Below are positions 24,690 through 28,473 of a DNA stretch of 64,000 nucleotides, one piece after another (positions within the stretch are counted from its first letter, which is position 1; each line of letters opens with the position of its first letter). A program made the position numbers and the translations under genes. Location of the stretch: assembly GCF_025989145.1 (NCBI RefSeq), contig NZ_JAPDNQ010000001.1, positions 1,922,001 to 1,986,000 of the forward strand, read 5' to 3'. The DNA is from Microbacterium sp. SSM24 (lineage in GTDB: Bacteria; Actinomycetota; Actinomycetes; Actinomycetales; Microbacteriaceae). The notes beneath the pieces were generated by a model. It worked only from the letters and a program-made list of their open reading frames with translations. It had not been told where the DNA came from and ran no database searches.

Positions 24690-25481
24690 TCAGAAGCGGT
24701 CGGGCGAGGGGGTGCCGTGGCCGTAGCGGATGACGACGTCGGCGTGACGGTCGAAGCGGTAGCCGACCCCGCGCACGGTGCGGACGATGTCCTCGTAGCG
24801 GCCGAGCTTCGCGCGCAGGCGGCGCACGTGCACGTCGATCGTGCGCTCGCCCGGTGCCTCCTCCTCGGTGGCGCCCTGCCACAGCGACGTCACCAGCTCG
24901 GTGCGCTCGATCGTGCGGCCCTCGCGCAGCACCAGGTACTGGAGCAGCTCGAACTCCTTGAAGGTGAACGCGGCGGAGTCCCCGTCGATGAGCACGCGCT
25001 TGCGCGAGATGTCGACGACCACGCCGCCGCCGGCGCGGTCCTCGTCTTCGGGCTCCTCCTGCTTGGTGCGGGCGATGGCCGAGGGCTCGTGCAGCGCGAG
25101 GCGCACGACGTCGACGTCGCGACCGCCGGATCCGACGGGGGCGAGGGCGACGGTGGCATACGTCTCCGCACCGGGTGCGAGCTCGCCGAGCGTGCGGCGC
25201 AGGGCGTCGACGAGCACGCCGAGGCTGACGCCGGATGCCGCGGCCTTCGCCTCGTCGATCCCGACGTAGAGGGCGAAGCCGCGCGGTGCGGTGCCGGCCG
25301 GCAGGTGGCGCTGCGCGGCGGGCGCCTGCGCGGCGGGCGCCTGCGCGGCGGGCGCCTGCGCGGCGGGCGCCGGGGCGGCGACGGCCGGAGCGGGGCTGAT
25401 GACGGCGCGGAGGTGGCGCACGGGGGAGTCGGTGGTGGTGGTGGTGGTGGTGGGACGCTCGAGGAGGGCGGTGGTCGACAT
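24690..25481 (-). CDS. Winged-helix regulator without receiver domain
   Basis: A 263-residue protein whose C-terminal part is an OmpR/PhoB-type winged helix (FTFKEFELLQYLVLREGRTI, TIDVHVRRLRAKLG, IVRTVRGVGYRFD). No receiver domain precedes it. The N-terminus has a Thr run (TTTTTTT), a four-unit AQAPA-type repeat encoded by a 15-bp tandem (about 25315-25375), and an unassigned domain (RGFALYVGIDEAKAAASGVS). The start has only a weak AGGA. A 33-codon cysteine-rich ORF lies about 200 bases upstream on the same strand and probably controls it. Confidence 0.85.
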   Translation of the reverse strand: MSTTALLERPTTTTTTTDSPVRHLRAVISPAPAVAAPAPAAQAPAAQAPAAQAPAAQRHLPAGTAPRGFALYVGIDEAKAAASGVSLGVLVDALRRTLGELAPGAETYATVALAPVGSGGRDVDVVRLALHEPSAIARTKQEEPEDEDRAGGGVVVDISRKRVLIDGDSAAFTFKEFELLQYLVLREGRTIERTELVTSLWQGATEEEAPGERTIDVHVRRLRAKLGRYEDIVRTVRGVGYRFDRHADVVIRYGHGTPSPDRF

Positions 25482-25688
25482 GATGATGGTCCTAGCGGGA
25501 GGGAGCCCGGGCCGAGGGACGGCAGGAAGGGACTCGGATGTGCGTGTGCCCGGTGAGGGCTGTGCCCGTCGTCGGGCGTTGAGCGAGGCATCCGGTCGCG
25601 CGTGATCGACGCGTGGTTCCGGTGCTTCGGGGGACTCGCCAGGCCGTTGTTTCAGAAGCGGCGTGCGGGTCCGGCGGGGGTCACCGTG

Positions 25689-25790
25689 CTAGTGGCACAT
25701 TCGACAACACATGGCAACGCGGCCGGCCATCATCATGCCGGCAGCTCCGTTCGCCTCCCAGGCGGACAGGTAGCGTGCGTTGTCAGTCAT
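25689..25790 (-). CDS. Cysteine-rich leader peptide ORF (33 codons)
   Basis: On the minus strand an ORF runs from ATG 25790 to TAG. It begins MTDNARYLSAWEANG and ends with MCCRMCH, three cysteines among the last six residues. A TTGACG-N18-CATAAT promoter lies immediately upstream, and ATG 25790 is 7 bases after CATAAT, so translation would be leaderless. An internal ATG at 25736 has GGAG 8 bases before it. The following gene, about 207 bases on, is the wHTH regulator. The clustering of Cys codons suggests translation-dependent attenuation sensing cysteine, but this is inference. Confidence 0.6.
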   Translation of the reverse strand: MTDNARYLSAWEANGAAGMMMAGRVAMCCRMCH

Positions 25791-25797
25791 GTGGCCG

Positions 25798-25827
25798 ATT
25801 ATGACCGAGTGGGTCCCAATGCGTCAA
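25798..25827 (-). promoter_or_regulatory. Promoter of the leader ORF and wHTH regulator
   Basis: Minus-strand TTGACG (25827-25822), 18-base spacer, CATAAT (25803-25798). It is the closest match to a vegetative sigma promoter in the window. Transcription would begin at or near ATG 25790. Confidence 0.7.
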
Positions 25828-25929
25828 ATCGCACGGATACCGCGTTCCTTTCATGACGGAATGTGACACTTTGCTCAATCGGCGGGCGTGAGCGCGAGAT
25901 GAGATTTGTTGGCTAATTCCACAAATGTC

Positions 25930-25991
25930 TTGCGTCGGCGATCGCGATGTGCCTAACATTCGAGTCGAAGCGTTTCCGCGAAGCGCTTCGA
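25930..25991 (+). promoter_or_regulatory. lacI promoter and LacI-type operator
   Basis: TTGCGT (25930-25935), 18-base spacer, TAACAT (25954-25959). Just downstream lies TCGAAGCG (25965), then a perfect palindrome CGAAGCGCTTCG (25979-25990), the classical LacI/GalR-type operator core. The regulator would thus repress its own gene. Upstream, 25828-25929 holds a weak palindrome, ATTTGT-N11-ACAAAT, of unknown role. Confidence 0.75.
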
Positions 25992-26022
25992 CAGCGAATT
26001 TCCCCCAGACGATGAGGTCGAC

Positions 26023-27054
26023 ATGGCGAATATCAACGAGGTGGCCGAGGTCGCCGGCGTGTCGATCAGCACCGTGTCGTACGCACTCAGCGGAAAGCGC
26101 CCGGTCGCCGAAGACACCCGTCGCCGCATCGAGGCCGCGGTGCTCGAGCTCGGCTACAGCCCCAACGCGGGCGCCCGCATGCTGGCAGGGTCGCGCACCC
26201 AGATCTTCGCGCTGACCGAGCCGCTGCGAACCGATACGCACGCGCCGACCCACATGGCCTTCGTGCTCGCGACCGCGGTTGCCGCGCGCCGGAACGACTA
26301 CGACATCCTCCTCCTCACGGACGAGCAGGCCCAGGCGGGTATGAGCCGGGTCGCCGCGAACGGCCTGGTCGATGCGATCCTCGTGCTGGACGTGGCCCCC
26401 GACGATGCGCGGGTCGCGCTCGCGCGGCAGATCACGACGCCCACCGTGTTCATCGGGATCCCCGACGACAACGACGGTCTGATCTGCGTCGACCTCGACT
26501 TCGAGGCCGCCGCGGCGCAGGCGGTCGACCTGCTCGCCGATGCCGGCCACCGTTCGATCGGACTCGTGGGGCAGACCGAGACGGCTTACGTGAAGTCGAA
26601 CTTCCCGCCCCGCGTCCGCGCGAGCGTGCTCGGGCGGAGCGCCGAGCGCGGCGCCCGGGCCGCGTACGGCACGACCGGATCCAAGCACGCCAACCGCCAG
26701 GCGACCCGTCGCACGGTGGCCGAACTGCTGGACGGCGGCGCGACGGCCCTCATCCTCCACTGTGCGGACGACGCTCATGCGGCCGCGCTCGCCGAGCTCG
26801 ACGCGCGCGGACTCCGGATTCCCGAGGATGTCTCGGTCGTGTCGGTCGGCGCATCGTTCGACCTGACCGCGCTGCCCGTCGCGCTCGACTCCCTGCCCCT
26901 CGTGCCCGAGAGGTCGTGCGACCTCGCCGTCGACCTCGCGCTGCAGGCGCTCGGCTCCGACCGTCCCGAGCCCGGTGTCCGGCTCATCCCTCCGACCTAC
27001 ACCGCCCGCGGCTCCATCGCCGCGCCCAGATCGTCGGAGGCCACGGCGGACTGA
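26023..27054 (+). CDS. LacI-family transcriptional regulator of the sugar operon
   Basis: A 343-residue repressor. The N-terminal helix-turn-helix with hinge (INEVAEVAGVSISTVSYALS, then GYSPNAGARMLAGSRT) precedes a periplasmic-binding-protein-like sugar domain (FALTEPLR, FIGIPDDNDGLICVDLD, HRSIGLVGQ). It lies immediately upstream of an ABC sugar importer and two glycosidase genes. Identical operator cores occur before it (25979) and before the importer genes (27092), so it controls both. The inducer is probably a plant-derived oligosaccharide. Confidence 0.92.
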   Translation: MANINEVAEVAGVSISTVSYALSGKRPVAEDTRRRIEAAVLELGYSPNAGARMLAGSRTQIFALTEPLRTDTHAPTHMAFVLATAVAARRNDYDILLLTDEQAQAGMSRVAANGLVDAILVLDVAPDDARVALARQITTPTVFIGIPDDNDGLICVDLDFEAAAAQAVDLLADAGHRSIGLVGQTETAYVKSNFPPRVRASVLGRSAERGARAAYGTTGSKHANRQATRRTVAELLDGGATALILHCADDAHAAALAELDARGLRIPEDVSVVSVGASFDLTALPVALDSLPLVPERSCDLAVDLALQALGSDRPEPGVRLIPPTYTARGSIAAPRSSEATAD

Positions 27055-27091
27055 CCGCCGCGGCATCCGATCCGCGTTTCGCTGCCCGCTA

Positions 27092-27105
27092 TCGAAGCGC
27101 TTCGA
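27092..27105 (+). promoter_or_regulatory. LacI-type operator upstream of the sugar ABC operon
   Basis: TCGAAGCGCTTCGA is a perfect 14-bp palindrome sharing its core with the operator at 25979. It lies 58 bases before ATG 27163 of the binding-protein gene. Confidence 0.8.
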
Positions 27106-27162
27106 CAACTCAATCACACACCATCGCGACCAACGTTGGTCACCAAGAAAGGAGTGCCACCG

Positions 27163-28473
27163 ATGGCACGAATCACACGCAAGAACGCCCGACGCGGCCT
27201 CGCCGCCGTGGGCGCCCTGACCGTCGGCGCGCTCGCGCTCGCCGGCTGCGCCGGTGGCGGCAGCGGCAGTGAAGGCGACGGCGACACGCTGAAGCTCTGG
27301 CACTACGAGGGCGAAGACAGCGCGATGGCGAAGGCCTGGAACGAAGCCATCAAGGTGTTCGAAGAGGAGACCGGCGCGACGGTCGAGTTCGAGCAGAAGT
27401 CGTTCGAGCAGATCCAGAAGACCGCGAGCCAGGTGCTCGACTCGGATGCCGCGCCCGACCTCATGGAGTTCAACAAGGGCAACGCGACGGCCGGGTTCCT
27501 CGCCTCGACCGGCCTGATCGCCGACATCTCCGACGCCGTCGACGAGTACGGCTGGGCGGACAAGCTCGCTCCGTCGCTGCAGACCACCGCCAAGTACACC
27601 GAGGACGGGGTCATGGGCGGCGACACCTGGTACGGCATCCCCAACTACGGCGAGTTCGTCGGCGTGTACTACAACGAGGAGGCCTTCGCGGCGGCGGGCC
27701 TCGAGATCCCCACCACCTACGACGAGTTCGTGGACGTGCTCGACGCGTTCGTCGCTCAGGGCATCACCCCGCTCGCCGAGGCCGGTGCGGAGTACCCGCT
27801 GGGTCAGCTGTGGTACCAGCTCGCGCTGACGCAGGCCGACCGGCAGTTCGTCAACGACTACCAGCTCTACGAGAACCCGGTCGACTGGCAGGGCGAAGAG
27901 CTCACCTACGCCACCGAGACCCTCCAGGAGTACGTCGACAAGGGGTACATCGCCTCGGACGTCTCGTCCGTCAAGGCCGAGGACGCGGGTGTCTCGTTCA
28001 TCAACGGCACGGCCCCGATCTTCGTGTCGGGTTCGTGGTGGTACGGACGCTTCGTCGAGGAGGCCGGCTTCGACTGGACGCTGCAGGCGTTCCCCGACAC
28101 GCAGCTCTCGCTCGGGTCGTCGGGCAACCTGTGGGTCGTGCCTGAGAACGCGGCCAACAAGGAGCTCGCGTACGAGTTCATCGACATCACGATGCGTCCC
28201 GAGATCCAGGCGATCATCGGCAACAACGGCGGCGTCCCCGTCGCCGCGGAACCCGCCGACATCACCGACGAGAAGAGCGCCGAGCTCATCGCGACGTTCA
28301 ACGGGATCCTCGACAACGACGGACTGTCGTTCTACCCCGACTGGCCCGCCGCCGGCTTCTACGACGTCATCGTCCGTGAGCTGCAGGGTCTCGTGACCGG
28401 CACACAGGATGCCGAGACGACGAACGCCAACCTCGGCGCCGAGTACGAAGAAGGCACAGCGGACTTCCGCTGA
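27163..28473 (+). CDS. Sugar ABC transporter substrate-binding lipoprotein
   Basis: A 436-residue CUT1-type binding protein. The lipobox ALAGC acylates Cys29. The mature part reads LKLWHYEGEDSAMAKAWNEA and FEEETGATVEFEQKSFEQIQ, a standard start for oligosaccharide receptors; VSGSWWYGRF and DTQLSLGSSGNLWVVPENA lie in the second lobe. The start ATG 27163 has AAAGGAG upstream. It is the first gene of the operon repressed by the LacI protein and delivers sugar to the two permeases. Confidence 0.95.
   Translation: MARITRKNARRGLAAVGALTVGALALAGCAGGGSGSEGDGDTLKLWHYEGEDSAMAKAWNEAIKVFEEETGATVEFEQKSFEQIQKTASQVLDSDAAPDLMEFNKGNATAGFLASTGLIADISDAVDEYGWADKLAPSLQTTAKYTEDGVMGGDTWYGIPNYGEFVGVYYNEEAFAAAGLEIPTTYDEFVDVLDAFVAQGITPLAEAGAEYPLGQLWYQLALTQADRQFVNDYQLYENPVDWQGEELTYATETLQEYVDKGYIASDVSSVKAEDAGVSFINGTAPIFVSGSWWYGRFVEEAGFDWTLQAFPDTQLSLGSSGNLWVVPENAANKELAYEFIDITMRPEIQAIIGNNGGVPVAAEPADITDEKSAELIATFNGILDNDGLSFYPDWPAAGFYDVIVRELQGLVTGTQDAETTNANLGAEYEEGTADFR

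Follow-up and report, generated by a model that had tools for sequence, protein, structure and literature searches.

The locus lies on the minus strand of a 64,000-nucleotide stretch of the Microbacterium sp. SSM24 genome (hereafter the window; 70% G+C), where a short open reading frame (ORF) of 33 codons precedes the gene for a winged-helix regulator. The ORF runs from 25790 to 25689, encodes the peptide MTDNARYLSAWEANGAAGMMMAGRVAMCCRMCH and closes with a TAG stop, from which 207 bases lead to the regulator ATG at 25481. Its main features are as follows.

25822-25827, minus strand: -35 element TTGACG of the leader promoter (sequence and promoter scan)
25798-25803, minus strand: -10 element CATAAT, after an 18-base spacer from the -35 element and 7 bases before the ATG at 25790
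25689-25790, minus strand: Met/Cys-rich leader ORF of 33 codons (translation, profile and conservation in the genus)
25728-25736, minus strand: Met-codon run ATGATGATG, codons 19-21 (sequence)
25695-25709, minus strand: TGT TGT CGA ATG TGC, codons 28-32 (CCRMC), with CGA in all leaders counted
24690-25481, minus strand: receiver-less winged-helix regulator of 263 aa, with a GlnR/PhoB-like DNA-binding domain at residues 171-243, lacking Cys altogether and Met beyond the start (Pfam, profile and fold)

A preliminary description of this DNA had pointed to a promoter of the form TTGACG-N18-CATAAT followed, 7 bases on, by the ATG of a 33-codon ORF with three cysteines in its ending, CCRMCH. The promoter and the start codon lie where it placed them, and translation confirmed the ending. 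With only 7 bases between the -10 element and the ATG, the predicted transcript would be leaderless or nearly so. The promoter scan, which covered 701 bases (25400-26100), returned this promoter-like site only, with 0.1 expected in shuffled sequences. Beyond its Cys codons the leader is also rich in Met, with MMM at codons 19-21. The peptide matched no Pfam and no NCBIfam family, and a search of 25400-26000 with the covariance models of Rfam 15 returned nothing at E values up to 1. The neighbours in SSM24, at 26023-28473, are ordinary: a divergent LacI-type regulator and then, judged by eye, an apparent sugar ABC transporter binding protein.

The regulator is present in 144 of 149 same-genus genomes, and the upstream DNA was examined for 130 of the 144. 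Of these 130 Microbacterium loci, 129 have the leader ahead of the regulator, the exception being a contig edge. An initial motif search recovered 124, and inspection accounted for the remaining six: four with the first Cys changed, one with a C-terminal extension, and the contig edge. Leaders in the genus are 31-37 codons long and differ by whole codons. For 128 of the 129 leaders, a loose promoter pattern, TTGAC-N-NAnnnT, has its end 4-9 bases ahead of the ATG; a contig edge truncates the remaining one. Adjacent Cys codons (CC) occur near the C terminus in 125 of the 129, the first Cys being replaced in four. Among sampled pairs within the genus, mean ungapped pairwise nucleotide identity was 0.85 in the ORF, as against 0.36 in the 60 bases past the stop and 0.31 at positions -60 to -40. 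Judged by these alignments, the leader is conserved far beyond chance. The preliminary description had made conservation of the reading frame and of the C-terminal Cys codons among relatives the check on its proposal; both are kept within the genus and beyond it, and the comparison did not refute it.

A profile built from 46 aligned leaders matched 175 of 249 genomes of the Microbacteriaceae, in 69 of 85 genera, at one place per genome; SSM24 itself has one convincing place, its next match having an E value of 0.045. The regulator occurs in 240 of the 249 genomes and 84 of the 85 genera. It was present in 29 of 30 loci from the family leader search (4 from the genus and 26 from other genera), the other lying at a contig edge, and it was downstream on the same strand in 74 of the 80 named loci (the best 80 of 254), the other six being incomplete loci of 3.3-3.5 kb. 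Thirteen of the 74 profile-negative family genomes were examined: a diverged leader with the ending CCRM[CHS]A is present in 11, and none was found in the other two. Since the diverged leaders keep CCRM, the invariant part is CCRM before the stop, and the Met run is common, not universal. One diverged leader (locus L391) has five consecutive in-frame copies of MMPV, a naturally expanded Met run. A broader profile gave no true match outside the family in 297 genomes of the order (22 family matches and 2 by chance) or in 197 genomes of the class; the two chance matches (L183 and L184) were marginal, at E 0.004-0.005, and were judged so on inspection. In the smallest family genomes (1.1-1.9 Mb), the regulator is kept in most and the leader profile matches few. 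The comparison establishes that a leaderless ORF is conserved and that its linkage to the regulator is fixed.

Orthologs of the regulator were also found at 20 loci from three other families of the order, two of which, Micrococcaceae and Brevibacterium, were assigned by the names of one member's homologs each. Ahead of the regulator, 7 of 10 Micrococcaceae-type loci have a short ORF with CCRM[HQ]A or a variant of it, 6 of 7 Brevibacterium-type loci have one with M-x-CVR, and all three loci of the third family have Met-rich ORFs ending RQPSL; these patterns were written after the ORFs had been seen, so the counts describe rather than test. One related-family leader (L209) is Met-rich, with MMMMMMQMM, and has no Cys near its end. 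In two genomes of a more distant family, the only 2 of its 22 genomes with the regulator, M[TA]CPGCCSPSDAPSI lies ahead of it, and the regulator there has neither Cys nor internal Met. By gene calls, a uracil phosphoribosyltransferase gene adjoins the regulator in 7 of 8 family loci outside Microbacterium, 3 of 3 Brevibacterium-type loci and 1 of 2 third-family loci, an order not seen in Micrococcaceae-type or Microbacterium loci; the shared neighbour makes the loci look orthologous. Often beyond it lies a deaminase gene (L307-L319 and L321; Pfam of one copy of each), which we read as tadA-like. TadA makes the inosine tRNA that reads CGA, and the fixed CGA of the leader beside a tadA-like neighbour is possibly coincidence. 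No sulfur gene was recognised among the shared neighbours, few of which are annotated. We also considered a link to sulfate assimilation, which is weakened by a PAPS reductase family match in just 5 of 13 same-genus genomes; the other 8 have none, so a need for reduced sulfur is possible in some members of the genus.

The preliminary description had called the downstream gene a PhoB-type DNA-binding protein without a receiver, and Pfam bears this out, finding Trans_reg_C (PF00486) at residues 171-243 only and no Response_reg domain. By profile and fold, the best matches of this domain are GlnR and PhoB (8hml, 8hig and 1gxq), with 43% identity to GlnR; the regulator thus shares their DNA-binding domain and differs in having no receiver domain. 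Its N-terminal half matched nothing in Pfam, and none of the 50 fold matches listed by Foldseek was to that half itself; the structure model (mean pLDDT 74) and Foldseek recognise the DNA-binding domain only.

The composition of the regulator is unusual. A codon tally of the regulators gave no Cys codon and a single Met codon in each gene. Against a background of 28 window genes with 1.42% Met and 0.64% Cys (genes of at least 200 aa, picked by codon bias, not annotation), it is the only gene with neither. The 13 other PF00486 proteins of the SSM24 genome have 2-7 Met each in their last 200 aa and the regulator has none; a low Cys content is in any case usual for such regulators, 8 of the 13 paralogs having none in that segment. 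Among 121 close homologs (120 listed of 6,137 protein database matches, plus one; the names seen were mostly Microbacterium), 30,183 residues include 1 internal Met and no Cys. The 130 genus loci (30,265 aa, read from alignment start to stop) hold no Cys and nine Met, seven of them the second residue and two at about residue 22 of the stretch read; we read all nine as start codons. Likewise, 25 other-genus loci (5,372 aa) have no Cys and one Met, taken as the start, and the 13 regulators of the profile-negative genomes have no Cys and only two Met, both first residues of the stretch. Depletion is milder outside the family, with 0.24% Met and 0.01% Cys in Brevibacterium-like homologs and 0.47% Met and 0.01% Cys in Micrococcaceae-type homologs, none of 118 of which is Met-free. 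All of these Met and Cys counts share ancestry and are not independent, and the comparison establishes a regulator free of sulfur amino acids beyond its start. Having no Cys and no internal Met, such a protein would not have its own synthesis limited by a shortage of either.

Selection on the leader extends to its codons. The choice TGY-TGY-CGA-ATG is nearly fixed across leaders: CGA is the Arg codon of CCRM in 129 of 129 genus, 26 of 26 other-genus and 11 of 11 diverged leaders, and it precedes Met in all 7 Micrococcaceae-type loci (of 10) that have such an ORF. Elsewhere CGA makes up 64 of the 3086 Arg codons counted in regulator genes and 60 of the 847 counted in window genes. TGT serves as the first Cys codon in 137 of 149 leaders, the counts in window genes being 2 TGT and 66 TGC. 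Ser9, Ala10 and Ala13 each use a single codon in 111 of 111 33-codon leaders; in conserved Ala columns of the regulators the top codon averages 0.65. By codon position, conservation is 0.83 at third and 0.84 at first positions. The comparison thereby establishes that codons are fixed, and fixed rare and synonymous codons indicate selection on codons or RNA besides the peptide, as does the near-equal conservation of third and first positions.

These patterns bear on two readings in which the peptide itself would be the active element. In the first, the ORF product would be a small trans-acting protein, merely co-transcribed with the regulator. We consider this very improbable: it would suit the strong amino acid conservation within the genus, but the ORF stands ahead of one gene in the loci checked and at one place per genome, its synonymous codons are fixed, and orthologous regulators elsewhere have different short ORFs sharing mainly their Met/Cys richness. 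The second is that the nascent Cys/Met peptide senses a metal or an oxidant in the exit tunnel, the sulfur-free regulator being simply robust to the same agent. Met and Cys can bind metals and be oxidised, the regulator avoids both, and conservation reaches beyond the Cys and Met codons, with S9, A10, E12, A13 and N14 invariant in the 46 aligned genus leaders. Yet the middle and N-terminal parts of the leader are replaceable in other genera, third-position conservation points to codon or RNA selection, and the peptide matches nothing in Pfam or NCBIfam; peptide sensing of this kind seems improbable, if less so than action in trans.

We next consider pairing in the RNA, for which three features matter.

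25722-25742, minus strand: putative hairpin P1 around the Met-codon run, GCCGGC-AUGAUGAUG-GCCGGC (pair counts in MMM leaders)
25503-25535, minus strand: hairpin P2, GAGUCC/GGGCUC by eye, upstream of the Shine-Dalgarno site (stem covaries among relatives)
25479-25489, minus strand: CCATCATCATG over the regulator start codon, a perfect complement of the leader Met-codon run (sequence and complement counts)

For P1, the pairs in MMM leaders were GGG/CCC in 42 and GGC/GCC in 28, but GGC/CCC in 13. P2 lies about 20 bases upstream of the regulator ATG and changes in a compensatory way: of 113 sequences, 68 have A-U and 34 have G-C at one pair. An inverted repeat of at least 5 occurs at this site in 115 of 122 loci, a count with no chance level. 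In a contiguous-stem test with fixed windows, a stem of at least 6 was found in 69 of 118 loci, whereas with swapped partners the fraction was 0.325 and with shuffled ones 0.12; the alignment-based pair counts are the better evidence. By eye, no T run follows P2.

In 73 of 118 genus loci, a complement of the Met run of at least 7 bases overlaps or adjoins the regulator start, against 4.6 expected from shuffling and 11.2 from other windows of the same DNA. Other genera have one in 13 of 25 loci (1.1 from shuffling, 1.7 from other windows), mostly about 18-29 bases before the regulator start, not over it. Within the genus, the exact Met run and CATCATCATG at the start are both present in 67 of 118 loci and both absent in 29, with only one of them in 20 and 2. 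Over 234 branches, on which the two changed 14 and 11 times, changes of both coincided in branch and direction 5 times. The Cys codons have a complement of at least 7 in 32 of 118 loci, against 3.0 expected; a control leader segment gave 6. Several clades lack the Met run and its complement. What the comparison establishes here is a covarying hairpin and a recurrent complementarity.

The preliminary description had likened the ORF to Cys-rich leaders that control downstream genes by ribosome stalling. Control of the regulator by stalling is plausible on these alignments, which show the frame, the leaderless promoter and the CCRM end conserved; folding gave mixed results for leader codons pairing at the following gene's initiation region, as in translational attenuators of the erm/LEU-element type, and speaks against the simplest version, in which a stall at Cys opens the start. 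In ensemble folding, leader-start pairing averaged 0.26, versus 0.16 with shuffled leaders, and exceeded the shuffled mean in only 49 of 118 loci. With a ribosome placed over the Cys codons, the start site became less accessible by more than 0.1 in 47 of the 118 and more accessible in 8, which does not support the model in which a Cys stall simply frees the start site. At 54 loci, a ribosome on codons 16-26 gave mean start accessibilities of 0.54-0.59 and one on codons 28-34 gave 0.34-0.39, with 0.46 for free RNA; the step falls between codons 26 and 28, the limit of resolution of the footprint approximation. On average, the MTTN and MCH groups (33 of the 54 loci) show the predicted switch, which is nearly absent from the mean of the other 21. 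This folding favours a stall on the Met run as the ON state and gives no support to a simple Cys-stall ON state. We also tried RNAduplex on the 3' half of the leader and the regulator start, where native pairing was not stronger than after synonymous recoding (means of -41.7 and -43.0 kcal/mol; native better in 44 of 118 and in the best 5% in 5). That control gets little weight, because recoding raises G+C and because the Cys codons could not be recoded, the codon frequencies having come from regulators without Cys.

We propose that the ORF is a leaderless attenuator responding to sulfur amino acids, which would turn on a sulfur-sparing regulator when Met or Cys runs short, and we hold this to be probable. 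The leader would act as a gauge of the supply of charged Met- and Cys-tRNA. Ribosomes would start at the 5' end of the mRNA, meet the Met-codon run and then TGT-TGY-CGA-ATG-TGY, in which TGT and CGA are rare codons for a 70% G+C genome, and the position of the pause would decide whether the downstream regulator is made. The most likely route would be changed base pairing at the ribosome-binding region of the regulator, with the Met run ATGATGATG and CATCATCAT as candidate partners, possibly together with Rho loading on a C-rich stretch. When Met or Cys is scarce, the regulator would be made and transcription adjusted. Translation, control in cis, the signal, its direction and the regulon are what we infer here. 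That the leader is real, translated and cis-acting appears very likely from the comparative evidence, and a sulfur amino acid signal appears likely. ‘Cysteine’ alone is too narrow a name for that signal, given that Met codons are as prominent, that the MMMMMMQMM leader has no Cys near its end and that the regulator avoids Met too. A broader statement, which we judge evenly poised between right and wrong, is that the Micrococcales have a self-consistent switch for sulfur scarcity, general rather than pathway-specific, with a leader spelling Met and Cys as its gauge and a regulator purged of both as its output; the leader sequence would have been rebuilt several times and yet have stayed rich in Met and Cys, keeping the TGT-CGA-ATG codon signature in two families.

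The main rival for the downstream step is Rho-dependent attenuation of the TnaC type, in which Rho would load on the following stretch once the ribosome has left and end transcription before the regulator, a stalled ribosome masking the site.

25482-25688, minus strand: C-rich, G-poor stretch, a possible Rho-loading region (base counts in genus loci)

C exceeds G between leader and regulator in 118 of 118 genus loci, as against 47 of 118 for the 200 bases upstream of the promoter, with median C/G ratios of 1.78 and 0.97. The terminator scan found no intrinsic terminator in 25400-26100, which suits Rho and also sets the locus apart from a trp-type attenuator, where an intrinsic terminator follows the leader. 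The available passages of PMC1262725 already raise the Rho idea for mycobacterial cys leaders. Rho leaves unexplained, though, both the covarying hairpin beside the Shine-Dalgarno site and the recurrent Met-codon complement at the regulator start, and we regard it as a possible but rather unlikely account. Rho and base pairing may act together; according to the available part of PMC12810186, upstream ORF and Rho control are combined in a mycobacterial case.

The closest known systems are the mycobacterial polycysteine leaderless short ORFs (Canestrari et al., 2020), reported as cysteine-responsive in the accessible portions of PMC9094748, PMC9031893 and PMC13236596, and earlier PMC4633059. As described there, they resemble the SSM24 leader in being leaderless, in having Cys codons near the end, in lying upstream of a presumed target and in their actinobacterial host. 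They usually precede cysteine-metabolism genes, or else hypothetical genes, whereas in SSM24 the gene downstream encodes a transcription regulator in which Met and Cys are themselves avoided; and unlike them, going by those descriptions, the SSM24 leader is also Met-rich. Cys leader peptides have been described, too, for cys operons of Mycobacterium and P. acnes and for cbs of B. longum (Seliverstov et al., 2005; PMC1262725). From the available passages of that paper, they share with SSM24 a run of Cys codons near the stop, no intrinsic terminator and a polypyrimidine stretch afterwards; they differ in having biosynthetic targets and no conserved terminator-like hairpin, whereas the SSM24 type has a covarying hairpin before the next gene. 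The same passages describe the LEU element of leuA, for which pairing between a run of regulatory leader codons and the Shine-Dalgarno region of the following gene has been proposed; the Met run may pair likewise in some members. The LEU element differs in involving leucine, a pseudoknot and a biosynthetic gene.

Among the matches listed in a search of open-licence papers by title and abstract, none concerned this leader or regulator. Leaderless Cys leaders are a known kind, while this family, its target and its sulfur-free regulator appear new. If our reading is correct, a near-universal and apparently unstudied regulator of a large family has been identified, with its likely signal read from sequence alone, and leaderless Cys leaders extend from mycobacterial cysteine-metabolism operons to a transcription factor. 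It would also show how gauge and output can match in amino acid composition, and make sulfur amino acid sensing in these bacteria directly testable.

Two further observations concern the DNA around the start of the leader and the leader itself. In the genus (25798-25869 in SSM24, minus strand, for the promoter and the DNA upstream of it), the promoter spacer has GAC repeats at 10-base steps (TTGAC, GAC, GAC/GTC, then the -10 element), seen in the genus and not clearly present in the promoters of other genera, and one class of genus promoters has GTCAC-N5-GTCA 26-39 bases upstream of the -35 element. Either could be a putative binding site, perhaps of the regulator itself. Within the leader, codons 11-13 (25752-25760) contain GGAGG, which is kept within the genus, is Shine-Dalgarno-like and lies upstream of the Met run; it could pause ribosomes or start an internal ORF.
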